The position numbers and the translations under genes are program-made. The notes below the pieces were generated by a model that made no database searches, was not told where the DNA came from, and saw nothing but the letters and a program-made list of their open reading frames with translations. From NCBI GenBank assembly GCA_902762495.1, contig CACWOL010000008.1:1-64000 (forward strand): a DNA stretch of 64,000 nucleotides, read 5' to 3'. This document shows, piece by piece, positions 40,861 to 48,001 of this stretch (within the stretch, counting starts at the first letter, position 1; each line of letters opens with the position of its first letter). This DNA comes from an uncultured bacterium (GTDB taxonomy: Bacteria; Verrucomicrobiota; Lentisphaeria; Victivallales; UBA1829).

Positions 40861-41154
40861 ATGTGCCAGCTCGACAGGATCCGGAGTTTGAGGAGCGAGA
40901 TTTATGAGATCGCCAGGAAGCACAAGGCCGGCAAGGTCTATGTGTTCGGTTCCTGCGCCCGGATGGAGGAAACGCCCGACAGTGACGTCGATTTCATTGC
41001 CGAGTTTCAGCCGCACTCTTCCCTGTTCGATCTCGGCGGTTTGCAGTACGACCTGCAAAAACTGCTCGGATGCAAAGTCGACCTGATTCCGGAAGATTCT
41101 CTGACCGAAGACGCCTTCGCGGCCAATGTCAGAAAGGACATGGTCCTGTTATGA
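40861..41154 (+). CDS. mntA: MNT-domain nucleotidyltransferase antitoxin (MntA family)
   Basis: A 97-residue minimal nucleotidyltransferase. The catalytic signature is 'VFGSCARMEETPDSDVDF', matching GSxxx(9)DxD. In characterised MntA-HepT pairs the enzyme AMPylates the HEPN toxin and so neutralises it. The stop overlaps the start of the HEPN gene by 4 bp, and a clear promoter lies upstream. AGGAG precedes the ATG. Confidence 0.88.
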   Translation: MCQLDRIRSLRSEIYEIARKHKAGKVYVFGSCARMEETPDSDVDFIAEFQPHSSLFDLGGLQYDLQKLLGCKVDLIPEDSLTEDAFAANVRKDMVLL

Positions 41155-41486
41155 CAAGTGACCGCGACAGAATCGAACACATGATTCAGGGTATTGCCCG
41201 CATTGAGGATGCGATGAAGAATGTTTCGAAAGAGGAATTCTTTCGATCAAGGCTTCTGCTGGATGCCATGTCCTTCAATTTCGCGATCCTCGGGGAAGCC
41301 GCCAATAAGGTTTCCGATGCGCTTCAGGCAAAACACCCGGAAATCCCCTGGGGCGACATCATCGGGATGAGAAACATCCTGATTCATGATTATGTAAGGC
41401 CCCGTCCGGAGTATATGTGGGATGCCTACCGGAACGATTTGGCTCCGTTGAAACAGCATCTTTTGGAAATTCTGAAAGAGCTTTGA
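41151..41486 (+). CDS. hepT: HEPN-domain toxin (HepT, DUF86)
   Basis: A 111-residue helical HEPN/DUF86 protein. The RNase motif RxxxxHxY is seen in 'GMRNILIHDYVRP'; its Tyr is the residue modified by MntA in known pairs. 'SFNFAILGEAANKVSD' is typical of DUF86. Predicted RNase toxin acting on cellular RNA, neutralised by the preceding MntA. Start set by the 4-bp overlap with mntA. Confidence 0.88.
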   Translation: MTSDRDRIEHMIQGIARIEDAMKNVSKEEFFRSRLLLDAMSFNFAILGEAANKVSDALQAKHPEIPWGDIIGMRNILIHDYVRPRPEYMWDAYRNDLAPLKQHLLEILKEL

Positions 41487-42988: not shown

Positions 42989-43267
42989 ATGATTGCGAGC
43001 TACAAATGCAAGGAAACGCGGAAGCTGAAAGCGGAAGGTACAAGCAGGAAGTTCCGTTCAATCGAACGGGCAACCTTGCGCAAACTGGATATGCTTGATG
43101 CCATAGTGAATCTTGAAACGCTCAGAATTCCGCCCAGCAACCATTTTGAGGCGTTGCATGGCGAACGTGAAGGGCAATACAGCATTCGCATCAACTCGCA
43201 GTGGCGGATTTGCTTCACATGGCATGACGGAAATGTTCATGACGTTGAAATCGTCGACTATCATTAA
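42989..43267 (+). CDS. higB: HigB-type toxin (RelE superfamily)
   Basis: A 92-residue protein of the HigB killer family. The features are 'LDMLDAIVNLETLRIPPSNH', 'FEALHGEREGQYSIRINSQW' and 'RICFTWHDGNVHDVEIVDYH', the usual C-terminal block. Members cleave mRNA on the ribosome. AAGGAG lies 6 bp upstream. The toxin gene precedes the antitoxin gene, the normal order for higBA. Confidence 0.92.
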   Translation: MIASYKCKETRKLKAEGTSRKFRSIERATLRKLDMLDAIVNLETLRIPPSNHFEALHGEREGQYSIRINSQWRICFTWHDGNVHDVEIVDYH

Positions 43268-43279
43268 GGAGGTGCGATT

Positions 43280-43576
43280 ATGATCCGGACTAAAAATCTG
43301 ATTCATCCCGGCGAAATCCTCATGGAGGAATTCTTGAAGCCGATGAACATTACACAAAATAAGCTCGCGATGGACATTCATGTCCCTGCGCCGCGGATTT
43401 ACGCCATCGCAAGAGGCACACGGGCGATTACCGCCGATACGGCATTGCGTCTGGGAAAATACTTGGGGACGGGGCCGGAGTTCTGGCTCAACCTTCAGAA
43501 CAATTATGATTTGTGTGTTGCCGCTGCGAAAGCCCAAAAGGAAATTGAGGCTATTCCTGAATTTGCGTGCAACTGA
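43280..43576 (+). CDS. higA: HigA-type antitoxin (helix-turn-helix)
   Basis: A 98-residue XRE-family antitoxin. It starts with the family block 'IHPGEILMEEFLKPMNITQN'. The helix-turn-helix is in 'KLAMDIHVPAPRIYAIARG', and 'LRLGKYLGTGPEFWLNLQNN' is characteristic of HigA. It binds HigB and represses its own promoter. It follows higB by 12 bp with an AGGAGGTG ribosome site. Confidence 0.93.
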   Translation: MIRTKNLIHPGEILMEEFLKPMNITQNKLAMDIHVPAPRIYAIARGTRAITADTALRLGKYLGTGPEFWLNLQNNYDLCVAAAKAQKEIEAIPEFACN

Positions 43577-44982: not shown

Positions 44983-45285
44983 GTGCGCCTCGCGGTAACC
45001 ACGCCGATGAGGTGATCTTCCCTGATACACTACATCTCTTACCGTTCGCGTCTCAGCGGTAATACAAAGAAATCTTCCCCTCAATATGAACTACCTGGTC
45101 TACGCGTCTCGCGGTAAAGTATAAAGGAAGTGTCGAGCGTAGCGAGCTTACCGAGGCGGCGAAGCCGCCCCCAGCGAAGCGTGAATGTACCGCATTACCT
45201 GAAAAATTTTTGCCGTGCGCGTCTCGTGGTAAAGAAAGGCTGATCCATAACTCTAATTCCTCTTCTGCTCGCGTCTCGCGGTAAA
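44983..45285 (+). repeat. Five degenerate copies of a short GC-rich repeat, spacing near multiples of 57 bp
   Basis: Copies of a GCGTCTCGCGGTAA-like unit lie at about 44984, 45045, 45102, 45217 and 45269 (steps about 61, 57, 115 and 52 bp). Most contain CGCG-TCT-CGCG-like palindromes, and the intervening sequences are unique. Two reverse-strand copies lie at 47867-47882 and 47925-47943, 58 bp apart. Nothing else is recognisable in 44866-44980. Confidence 0.6.
45102..45181 (+). repeat. Composite palindromic repeat, copy A
   Basis: The short unit GCGTCTCGCGGTAA is followed, after a variable stretch, by GAGCGTAGCGAGCTTACC and then GGCGGCGAAGCCGCC-CCCAGCGAAGCG. GGTAA...TTACC and GGCGGC/GCCGCC are internal inverted repeats. 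Copy B is nearly identical at 45270-45347, and copy C is inverted at 47804-47884. Confidence 0.7.
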
Positions 45286-45347
45286 ATGAACCTGATGCCG
45301 AGCGTGAGCGAGTTTACCACGGCGGCGAAGCCGCCCCCAGCGAAGCG
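45270..45347 (+). repeat. Composite palindromic repeat, copy B
   Basis: Same order of elements as copy A: GCGTCTCGCGGTAA, GAGCGTGAGCGAGTTTACC, GGCGGCGAAGCCGCC, AGCGAAGCG. Its GGTAAA and TTTACC ends are exact inverses. Confidence 0.7.
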
Positions 45348-45414
45348 TGGACGCAACGCGTCCTTTTATTTCCCCTCAAAACTGGTTTTTTACTAAAAAA
45401 AGCAGAAAAACCGT

Positions 45415-45442
45415 TTGATTTTTCTCCGTTCGCGTGTAAATT
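45415..45442 (+). promoter_or_regulatory. Promoter for the candidate structured RNA
   Basis: TTGATT, 16 bp, TAAATT with TG directly before the -10 box; predicted start near 45450. Confidence 0.6.
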
Positions 45443-45449
45443 GTGTTTT

Positions 45450-45680
45450 GGAATCGCTTTCCTGACCAACGGGAATCCGGTTTCAAGCTCATTTCAGCCG
45501 TATTTCAATCAAAAGTACACGAAAACCGACCAAGTTTGCTATTAATCTTTTGATCCAGAGCTCGAAATACCAGCAGGAGCATTGTGTCTCCGTTTCTGCT
45601 GGGCGTTTCTCTGTCGTCTCTGGATCGGGTTCTTGGTCGGACCCTCGTGTACTCGCATGGGGAAGCGTCCGGCTTTTTTT
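45450..45680 (+). ncRNA. Candidate 6S-like structured RNA
   Basis: No gene fits this stretch, but it folds as one long rod of nested perfect stems. CGCTTTCC (45455) pairs with GGGAAGCG (45660), AGTACACGA (45514) with TCGTGTACT (45645), CCGACCAAG (45526) with CTTGGTCGG (45632), GATCCAGAG (45552) with CTCTGGATC (45618), GAAA (45564) with TTTC (45606), CCAGCAG (45570) with CTGCTGG (45596), and GGAG (45576) with CTCC (45588). An asymmetric bubble interrupts the rod (17 nt, TTTGCTATTAATCTTTT, opposite GGGTT). A promoter stands in front and seven T follow. A rod of this size with an AT-rich central bubble is the architecture of 6S RNA, the RNA polymerase decoy. The fold is clear; the 6S identity is an inference. 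Confidence 0.55.
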
Positions 45681-45719
45681 GTGCTCAACCGTCAAGAATC
45701 TGAACTTGACCTCCGCCAT

Positions 45720-45747
45720 TTGAACCGGTCGTTTCCTCGCGCATAAG
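45720..45747 (+). promoter_or_regulatory. Weak candidate promoter for the two-gene module
   Basis: TTGAAC, 16 bp, CATAAG, about 38 bp upstream of ATG 45786. The -10 match is poor; read-through from the RNA promoter is the alternative. Confidence 0.3.
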
Positions 45748-45785
45748 ATCGCATCCCCCACACAAAAAATATAGCGAGGTAAAAG

Positions 45786-47111
45786 ATGAGTTCAAAAAAA
45801 GAATCTGATTTCGATGCCATGGACTTTTGGCAAAAACACAACCGTAATGTTCAGTTAAAGCGAAACGCAGATGCTGCAAAACGTAGTGCTGATGCTGCGG
45901 AAGAAGTTGCCCGTGCAAAAAAAGAACAGGCATTGCAGGCAAAACTTGATCGGGAGGCAAATGATCTGCATAGAGCAAAAATGGAGGAATTCGCAAGAGC
46001 GGAAAAAGAAGCAAATGATCTGCATAGAGCAAAAATGGAAGAATTAGCGAAGCAAGAACGAGAAGCCAAAGAATTTTCAAAACAACAGCAACTCAAACTG
46101 TATGATGTTTCATGTCAAATTGATGATTTGGAAAAACAGAATACCGCCATAGAACGAATTCGGCTTTTCTATGAAATAAATGCAGAATTTGAAAGGATCG
46201 TACATGCCGCGATAGAAGACCTGCAATATCGTAAATTATACACGCAAACAAAAGCGGCCTTGAAGAAAGAAGAAACGATTATATCCCGCGATTTTAGCAA
46301 AGAATTGTCCCTTTATCTTAAAATTGAGGAACTTGAACAATTGCGGATGGATTTGTTTGGTGCAAAACAAAACATACGATCATTTGATGAGTTGCATTTA
46401 TCTAAACGACTGCTTACGGAAAGGCAAAAAGCATCCAAGGAAATGCCAGATTGGTCATTGAATACGGATGAGATATTTTCCCTGCAAAAAAGTATTGATA
46501 GATTTTATATCTCCGTTGCAAATCTAAAATGGTTTTGGGAGTTTTTTTCCAATAGCGGTTTCCTGGAATCTATTTCCATGTTTCAAAGCATGTTGTTTTT
46601 GTTTTATAAATTGGATGAAACAATCATACAGAGTAAAGAATGGCAAGATATAAGCATTGTGGGGCCTACCGAGGATGAATTCGAAGCATTTTGCAGGTTT
46701 TGTGTTGAACTTATTCAAAAGAATTATGATTATGCAGATACAGTTCTTCAAATCATGGAAAATATTGATTCTCCGGAAGCGGAGGAGACCATTGAAAAGA
46801 TTAAAGACCTGCAAAGGAAAAAACTGCTTGAAGTGCTGAAACACAAACAGGAGGAGGAACAAGAGGAACAGAAGAAAGAAAAAGTGTTAAAAAATGAGAT
46901 ACAGAAAAAAATAAATGAAAAACATACAGAAAGTAATATCTGTGGTTGTTTGGGTGTTCTATTATTGATTACCGGTTTTTGTCTGCTCCCCGTAAATGTA
47001 ATAATTTCTGTTATTTGTATTTTCTTGGGAGTGGGGGGAGTCGCTGCGAGTCATGATGCCAGCAAACAATTGAAGCAGTTGAAAGACGATGCAAAAAAAC
47101 AGGAGAAATAA
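45786..47111 (+). CDS. Coiled-coil protein with C-terminal double membrane anchor, unknown (module gene 1)
   Basis: A 441-residue protein. Residues about 15-125 are a long Ala/Lys/Glu/Arg coiled coil containing an 18-residue tandem duplication ('EANDLHRAKMEEFARAEK' then 'EANDLHRAKMEELAKQER'). About 125-345 is a helical region without recognised motifs. A second coiled coil (about 345-385, 'LLEVLKHKQEEEQEEQKKEK') leads to two hydrophobic segments at about 393-425 ('CLGVLLLITGFCLLPV', 'VIISVICIFLGVGG'). The base composition is much more AT-rich than its neighbours, suggesting recent acquisition. GAGGT lies 5 bp upstream. The next gene starts 2 bp after the stop, with its ribosome site inside this gene, so the pair is one transcription unit. 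Function unknown. Confidence 0.85.
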   Translation: MSSKKESDFDAMDFWQKHNRNVQLKRNADAAKRSADAAEEVARAKKEQALQAKLDREANDLHRAKMEEFARAEKEANDLHRAKMEELAKQEREAKEFSKQQQLKLYDVSCQIDDLEKQNTAIERIRLFYEINAEFERIVHAAIEDLQYRKLYTQTKAALKKEETIISRDFSKELSLYLKIEELEQLRMDLFGAKQNIRSFDELHLSKRLLTERQKASKEMPDWSLNTDEIFSLQKSIDRFYISVANLKWFWEFFSNSGFLESISMFQSMLFLFYKLDETIIQSKEWQDISIVGPTEDEFEAFCRFCVELIQKNYDYADTVLQIMENIDSPEAEETIEKIKDLQRKKLLEVLKHKQEEEQEEQKKEKVLKNEIQKKINEKHTESNICGCLGVLLLITGFCLLPVNVIISVICIFLGVGGVAASHDASKQLKQLKDDAKKQEK

Positions 47112-47113
47112 GT

Positions 47114-47797
47114 ATGCCGAGAAAATACATACTTAATGATAGTCTGTTAATCAATCATGAATGGACACGGAAGAATCCTGAGGACAACGGATATCGGACC
47201 GCGACACCGAATCTAATTGATGAGGTTGAGGATTCTGTTCAACGTGACCCCAAATATAAAAAATATGGGAAGGAATTAGACCTTTATTTGGGGGCAGAAA
47301 AGCATCATGCAAATATAAATCGGGACATAGTGATTCATAAAATACTATTGATAGATTACACGAACTCCACGAATCTCAAAATGTACGGAAAAAAAGGAAC
47401 CTCTGTTTTTTCTCTGGCGGACAAAATCGTGGCACGTGGAGATGAGCTGGATCAAATGATTCGAGATGGTTGCCCGGATGCCGTGAAAATAATCGCCGGA
47501 TTCGAGACAGTAAATTTGTTTTCCTTTGCGACAAAGTATTGCTGTTACCATAACACAATCTGCTATGGAAGAGATGACTATTCAATCTATGACAATATTG
47601 TTGCGCGAATGATCCCATTTTATCTCAAAGTTAGGCCGAGTTTTATTTCCGATTGCAGAAACACTCAAAACTATCTTGAGTACAAAAAAATCATTGACAC
47701 ATTAATTGCAGTTTATGATTTACAGGGTATTCCCAATATTAGGCGGAAAATAGATCATTTCCTGTGGTATCAGGACAAACAGAAGGACAACGAATAA
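47114..47797 (+). CDS. Unknown protein, possibly OGG-like fold (module gene 2)
   Basis: A 227-residue soluble protein coupled to the preceding coiled-coil gene (AGGAG at 47101-47105, 8 bp before ATG). The most conserved-looking part is 'NLFSFATKYCCYHNTICYGR' followed by 'YSIYDNIVARMIP' and the C-terminal 'RRKIDHFLWYQDKQ'. I recall a similar FA(S/T)KYC.(F/Y)HN...YD pattern in bacterial proteins assigned an 8-oxoguanine-glycosylase-like (OGG) fold, but this is a weak memory-based link. No membrane segment or signal peptide. AT-rich like its partner. An inverted composite repeat begins 7 bp after its stop. Confidence 0.8.
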   Translation: MPRKYILNDSLLINHEWTRKNPEDNGYRTATPNLIDEVEDSVQRDPKYKKYGKELDLYLGAEKHHANINRDIVIHKILLIDYTNSTNLKMYGKKGTSVFSLADKIVARGDELDQMIRDGCPDAVKIIAGFETVNLFSFATKYCCYHNTICYGRDDYSIYDNIVARMIPFYLKVRPSFISDCRNTQNYLEYKKIIDTLIAVYDLQGIPNIRRKIDHFLWYQDKQKDNE

Positions 47798-47803
47798 TCT
47801 TGT

Positions 47804-47884
47804 CGCTTCGCCGGGGGCGCGCATCCGCGCGCCTCGGTAAGCTCGCCTGCGCTCGACATGTTATTATTACCGCGGAGGCGCGAA
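47804..47884 (-). repeat. Composite palindromic repeat, copy C (inverted)
   Basis: Read on the minus strand it gives CGCGCCTCCGCGGTAA, then TGTCGAGCGCAGGCGAGCTTACC, then a CGCGC/GCGCG palindrome and CCCCCGGCGAAGCG, the same order as copies A and B. It closes the AT-rich module on the right; a further short unit lies at 47925-47943. Confidence 0.65.
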
Positions 47885-48001
47885 TGGCTGTTTTTTTTTG
47901 ATTGGGGAAGGAGCTTGTTTCCCTGACCGCGAGGCGCGAACGACGGAAGATTTTAAATAGCGGAAAAACTATCCGTGTACTGGATCAGCACACGCTGTGT
48001 G

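Follow-up and report, generated by a model that had tools for sequence, protein, structure and literature searches.

An AT-rich gene pair as one of many interchangeable loads behind a structured leader RNA in Lentisphaeria

The window, a 64,000-nucleotide stretch of DNA from an uncultured bacterium of the Victivallales (Lentisphaeria; assembly GCA_902762495.1, contig CACWOL010000008.1), contains two genes whose ATG start codons lie at 45786 and 47114 and whose reading frames are separated by 2 nt, confirming the coupling that an earlier note on this DNA had read from the letters (Table 1). The GC content of the pair is 37–38% (0.34–0.41 in 500-base windows), compared with 0.60–0.68 to the right and 0.60–0.65 to the far left, in agreement with the marked compositional difference from the surrounding chromosome described there. 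We also found all the composite repeats that it had listed, with copies A and B to the left in direct orientation (84% alike over ~80 nt) and copy C to the right and inverted, as well as the toxin–antitoxin pairs said to be close by, a HigB-like/HTH pair at 42989–43576 and a nucleotidyltransferase/HepT pair at 40861–41486. The span previously given for the module, from 45786, was however incomplete: the module really starts with the repeats and the leader, at about 45100, and this overlooked 5′ leader is the most interesting part of the locus.

Table 1. Positions in the window of the genes, repeats and leader RNA elements of the module
Feature	Position	Strand	Remarks
Composite repeat, copy A	45103–45183	+	direct
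Composite repeat, copy B	45270–45349	+	direct; end ~40–50 nt before the conserved leader block, as elsewhere
Conserved promoter	45415–45442	+	−35 TTGATT 45415–45420, 16-nt spacer, −10 TAAATT 45437–45442; alignment of 47 copies
Structured leader RNA, new family	45450–45680	+	core 45515–45673 scores 173 bits with model R1
Helix P6, 5′ strand	45500–45506	+	partner 45564–45570; complementary in nearly all of 78 copies
Helix P3, 5′ strand	45508–45515	+	partner 45547–45554; 3 pairs doubly changed, 97.4% paired
Outer helix 5′ strand (45515–45522) and P2 5′ strand (45526–45534)	45515–45534	+	predicted antiterminator fold
Helix P4, 5′ strand	45552–45560	+	partner 45618–45626; 8/9 pairs doubly changed, 9/9 in the wider set
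P4b apical hairpin (predicted antiterminator)	45570–45602	+	in competition with the terminator stem
Terminator stem, 5′ strand	45598–45611	+	sequence GCUGGGCGUUUCUC
P2 3′ strand (45632–45640) and outer helix 3′ strand (45645–45652)	45632–45652	+	
Terminator stem, 3′ strand, and U-run	45660–45680	+	strand ends GCGUCCGGC at 45673; U-run 45674–45680
Possible ribosome-site hairpin	45735–45779	+	CCTCGC 45735–45740 / GCGAGG 45774–45779; from sequence
Gene 1, coiled-coil protein with C-terminal membrane helices	45786–47111	+	441 aa
Gene 2, FATKYC...IYDN family	47114–47797	+	227 aa; possible glycosylase-like fold
Composite repeat, copy C	47804–47888	−	inverted, directly 3′ of gene 2

The AlphaFold2 model of the gene 1 product is weak (mean pLDDT 70) and all-helical, with one helix spanning residues 7–113 and further helices up to the C-terminus, which, together with two hydrophobic stretches at about 385–420, matches the coiled-coil protein with two C-terminal membrane helices proposed before. 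Relatives of gene 1 are found in this genus only, plus one contig binned as a proteobacterium. The gene 2 product contains the FATKYCxYHN...YD pattern as FATKYCCYHN...YSIYD, and belongs to a widespread, unnamed family, of which a search through 84,980 species genomes gave at least 94 relatives, mainly from gut Firmicutes and Lentisphaeria; residues invariant among 62 homologues include S137, F138, K141, C143 and D160.

Structure prediction, suggested in the earlier note for both proteins, was confident for gene 2 (pLDDT 94). The best structural matches of this model were 8-oxoguanine glycosylases of three subfamilies (AGOG, OGG2 and OGG1-type), none with a significant score, and the top Foldseek matches in the PDB (7ou3, 3n0u and 3f10) had E-values of 0.28–1.2, which are not significant, with TM-scores up to 0.43. 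The invariant K141 and D160 are 19 residues apart, like K249 and D268 of human OGG1, which have the roles of catalytic Lys and Asp (PMC3397491); gene 2 differs from OGG and other HhH-GPD DNA glycosylases in that it lacks the GxG hairpin signature and any significant sequence or fold score. The suggested check of gene 2 against these families by profile search gave no OGG/HhH-GPD match in Pfam or NCBIfam, a PDB sequence search returned chance matches only, and searches of a viral fold library and of viral contigs for relatives of gene 2 found none.

Genes adjoining gene 2 relatives encode macro domains (3), LEM-3-like GIY-YIG proteins (5) and RNase T-type exonucleases (2); HNH, GmrSD and WYL/FtsK types were each seen once. 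Taken with the weak glycosylase fold match, these neighbours make it plausible that gene 2 encodes a nucleic-acid-directed enzyme acting in genetic conflicts. The nucleic-acid-related partner envisaged for gene 1 is backed in part, by the neighbourhoods of the family and, at the E-values given above, weakly by the OGG matches. The macro-domain neighbours were seen at L109, L121 and L125, and the LEM-3-like GIY-YIG neighbours at L112, L115, L116, L126 and L136.

The gene pair was found at five loci only, four in this genus and one on the contig binned as a proteobacterium, and the other gene 2 homologues examined are without gene 1, which argues against a fixed two-gene system. The idea of an accessory cassette fared better, since the same site in sister genomes holds differing loads. 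This site, a hotspot flanked by a 4Fe-4S/DUF362-like gene on one side and an ABC-F ATPase gene on the other, varies within the genus: in G000, G001 and G003 it holds the gene pair (proteins 95–96% and 88–89% identical), in G004 a relative of gene 1 (49% identical) and, after it, a protein of 148 aa that matches no Pfam family, in G007 a zinc-ribbon/Sel1 protein with a protein kinase, and in G011 (L090:2403–7342) a complete-looking set of type I restriction genes (HsdM/HsdS/HsdR) without leader or repeats. In G012, whose contig covers only the ABC-F side, the same leader is followed by a TM2 protein. By eye, the partner of gene 1 in G004 (L027) shows a restriction-endonuclease-like D...QVK motif. 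A second gene 1 and gene 2 pair is present in G004 on the minus strand (L025:1371–2700), with gene 1 interrupted by a stop and gene 2 intact.

Several of these observations touch on the possibility that genes 1 and 2 form a dedicated anti-phage pair, in which a membrane effector would act with a base-excising or DNA-sensing partner. The presence of type I restriction genes in the same hotspot, the endonuclease-like motif in the other partner of gene 1, the macro, GIY-YIG, exonuclease, HNH and GmrSD genes beside gene 2 relatives and the OGG-type folds of its best matches are all consistent with such a function. Neither protein, however, has a PADLOC, Pfam or NCBIfam match (PADLOC gave weak hits only), the fold E-values are not significant, the pair is confined to its five loci, and other loads of the leader, such as AIDA-type adhesins, Sel1 and zinc-ribbon proteins, are not defence genes. 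We consider this specific assignment possible but somewhat doubtful; a defence role of the two-gene load in general is plausible.

The region upstream of gene 1 matches about 60 places in 12 of the 13 genomes of the genus. Leader copies share a promoter, an RNA of ~230 nt and a U-run, and are divergent beyond that; a promoter-like motif precedes 69 of 78 copies (7.75 expected in shuffles), and a U-run follows 71 of 78. Using a covariance model, R1, built from the leader RNA for a wider genome search, we detected the RNA in 63 of 120 related genomes, including all 13 of the genus, at 1–8 copies per genome, with 8 copies in the genome of the window; that 57 of the 120 gave no match is partly due to strict filters. 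A phylum sample of 388 genomes contained the RNA in 50, all of the same class and 49 of the same order, and in none of the sampled genomes outside the class. No family matched the window copy or four others in a covariance-model scan of Rfam 15, a search of viral contigs for the leader core found none, and a literature search found no published description of this leader RNA. The window copy has a folding z-score of −5.7. It is very probable that the leader RNA forms a genuine family that Rfam does not yet contain. A structured RNA has been reported from Lentisphaerae, Acido-Lenti-1 (RF01687; PMC2864571); it is a separate family, to which the Rfam scan of the leader gave no match. At loci L309–L347, which belong to other families, a second conserved block, GCTGGATTTCGCAGC, is often seen 3′ of the U-run.

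In 61 copies the first open reading frame of at least 100 aa downstream of the leader shares its strand, and in 4 it lies on the opposite one, while the upstream neighbour, used as a control, shows no bias (26 versus 27); some copies have no reading frame of 100 aa within 700 nt. A cis-acting role as a leader is likely, judging from sequence. An unlikely alternative reading is that the element, present in several copies, encodes a free-standing small RNA, with promoter and terminator of its own, that acts in trans (it might bind a protein, like 6S RNA) and for which the downstream genes are mere neighbours. It would account for the promoter and U-run, for the several copies per genome and for a compact, possibly pseudoknotted fold with conserved unpaired blocks, and 6S RNA and other free-standing structured RNAs also share with the leader a rod-like fold, a similar size and an own promoter and terminator. 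It sits poorly with a strand bias that is present downstream and absent upstream, with 1–8 copies that each precede a different load, and with a terminator arrangement that appears bistable; moreover, the leader differs from those RNAs in being multicopy within a genome, in being nearly always tied to a downstream gene and in having no Rfam match.

In an alignment of 43 copies made by sequence alone, 20 of 33 pairs showed double (compensatory) changes, and 97.7% of cells were paired, versus 30–46% with the partners slid. The 78 copies from across the order gave double changes in 24 of 33 pairs and 98.1% of cells paired, versus 28.5–45.3% slid. Covariation support for the secondary structure of the leader is therefore overwhelming. 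Double changes occur in 12 of 17 pairs of the outer helix and P2, and helix P6 has a mean duplex energy of −10.7, compared with −5.0 when shuffled (78 copies). The terminator stem is paired in 94.7% of cells (38–54% slid), with mostly one-sided changes and little covariation. A shorter terminator, GUCGGAC/GUCCGGC, was ruled out, one of its pairs being broken in 21 of 43 copies.

These helices do not all fit into one nested structure. In a rod fold made of the outer helix, P2, P4 and P4b, the 3′ strand of the terminator is left unpaired; in the alternative, P6 and P3 are followed by a long stem around P5 that ends at the U-run, and when the terminator stem was enforced, P3 formed in 64 of 77 copies, P6 in 64 of 77 and P5 in 77 of 77. 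The predictions suggest two mutually exclusive folds, one of them ending in a terminator, that is, a transcription attenuator, and from them we infer a two-state switch as a reasoned model. The mean energies are −56.0 kcal/mol for the terminator fold and −69.3 kcal/mol for the rod; the read-through fold is thus favoured by ~13 kcal/mol, so that a factor or kinetic trapping would be required for termination. As P6 and P3 cross other helices, a single pseudoknotted structure containing them is an alternative to a second state.

According to the two-state model, transcription would start at the conserved promoter, near 45450, and proceed through a bistable RNA of ~230 nt. Formation of the outer helix, P2, P4 and P4b would break the terminator stem, allowing polymerase to read on into both genes, whereas formation of P6 and P3, with the long stem that encloses P5 and has U7 at its end, would stop transcription at ~45680; some signal would set the balance between the two. 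With attenuating leader RNAs and riboswitches the leader shares its 5′ position, the same-strand gene, a covarying aptamer-like body and a U-run, as well as mutually exclusive terminator and antiterminator helices, which are here predicted and for which the pseudoknot is the alternative reading; it differs from them in having no Rfam match and in preceding unrelated accessory genes in place of one pathway. A leader peptide or other coding role was ruled out, as the lengths of the copies, taken modulo 3, represent all three classes and none of the frames is open in every copy; the copies contain more open frames than shuffles (47 versus 17). Two small hairpins lie 3′ of the U-run in the window, at 45691–45710 and 45735–45779, the second of which would cover the ribosome site of gene 1, and other leader copies have analogous but different small hairpins in this position.

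Leaders and cargos reassort. The leader core of G012 shares 98% identity with that of the window, yet their cargos are unrelated. G001 has a cargo 97% identical to that of the window behind a leader core only 66% identical; this G001 core instead resembles the one in G007 (90–93% identity), which has an unrelated cargo. Between G000:C55 and G009:C58, the leader is 100% and the upstream region 96% identical, again with unrelated cargo. Cargo similarity was undetectable in 14 of the 20 leader pairs with a likeness of 88% or more, and the break between leader and cargo is located near the U-run. The commonest Pfam families among 87 downstream proteins are the AIDA-type adhesin stalk (9), Sel1, TM2 and zinc ribbons, and caspase, dynamin, WYL, PD-(D/E)XK and GmrSD types also occur. 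The gene pair is one of many interchangeable loads behind a common leader in rumen and gut Lentisphaeria. At L259:4342–4878, a leader copy stands ahead of a gene that by eye resembles NusG/RfaH.

Such variety of loads also separates the leader from type III toxin–antitoxin systems of the ToxIN kind, which have the same order of promoter, structured RNA, terminator and gene; the leader is without tandem RNA repeats, and its diverse loads have no common toxin protein (ToxN-type RNase). Integron gene cassettes resemble the present loci in placing one expression platform ahead of interchangeable genes, with folded repeats around them, and differ in that here no integrase lies at the locus, there are several platforms per genome and the leader is a complex RNA.

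The composite repeats recur at related leader loci and are thus not due to chance: of 47 loci, 27 have plus-orientation copies up to 600 nt upstream, which mostly end ~40 nt short of the leader block, and 21 have an inverted copy downstream. They form arrays of one to several units, the longest with a ~148-nt period, and inverted copies follow the load. At L234:3800–5100 and other leader loci, arrays of up to ~7 composite repeats with the ~148-nt period are all directed toward the leader, and each repeat in such arrays can form several nested hairpins. Shorter units, consisting of CGCGTCTCGCGGTAAAG and ~35–40 nt, are spaced at 55–60 nt between composite repeats in the window (45003–45300) and also upstream of the leader at L027, with a superficial likeness to a spacer array.

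The fixed spacing of the leader to these arrays, the inverted repeats around the load and the leader–cargo reassortment with its break at the U-run could be taken to mean that the conserved structure acts at the level of DNA or recombination, as a mobile-element end or cassette attachment site, with any RNA role secondary. We regard this as highly improbable: promoter and U-run are conserved, the orientation to genes is strict, the helices tolerate GU pairs, and the repeats are absent from many leader loci. A search of the window contig for a phage-integrase match found none, and integrase-like ORFs occur at only a few leader loci, which argues against this DNA-level role and gives no support to a cassette driven by a dedicated integrase. 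Without an integrase on the contig, homologous exchange would be the likelier route, and since the same leader, with repeats before and behind, accompanies many loads, these could be swapped between loci or strains by homologous recombination.

The explanation that we favour, and think reasonably probable, is that the 2-kb module is exchangeable cargo behind a bistable, cis-acting leader RNA absent from Rfam, with loads that homologous recombination could swap, and that the present load is in all probability of a conflict or defence type, comprising a membrane coiled-coil protein and a partner that would act on nucleic acids. More tentatively, Lentisphaeria may possess an RNA-headed cassette system, in which the bistable leader with its own promoter, surrounded by folded repeats, serves as a standard expression platform for recombination-shuffled adhesins, defence genes and other loads; if so, all the variable loads in a genome could come under the joint control of one signal. 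Since the genes attached to it are unrelated accessory ones (surface adhesins, caspase-like, dynamin-like and restriction-type), a single leader would be co-ordinating variable genes that are shuffled horizontally, an unusual arrangement. Being large, conserved across the order and absent from Rfam, the leader RNA may represent a class of riboswitch or attenuator, the signal of which can be searched for directly, and model R1 provides a search handle for accessory, possibly defence, genes in poorly studied gut bacteria.
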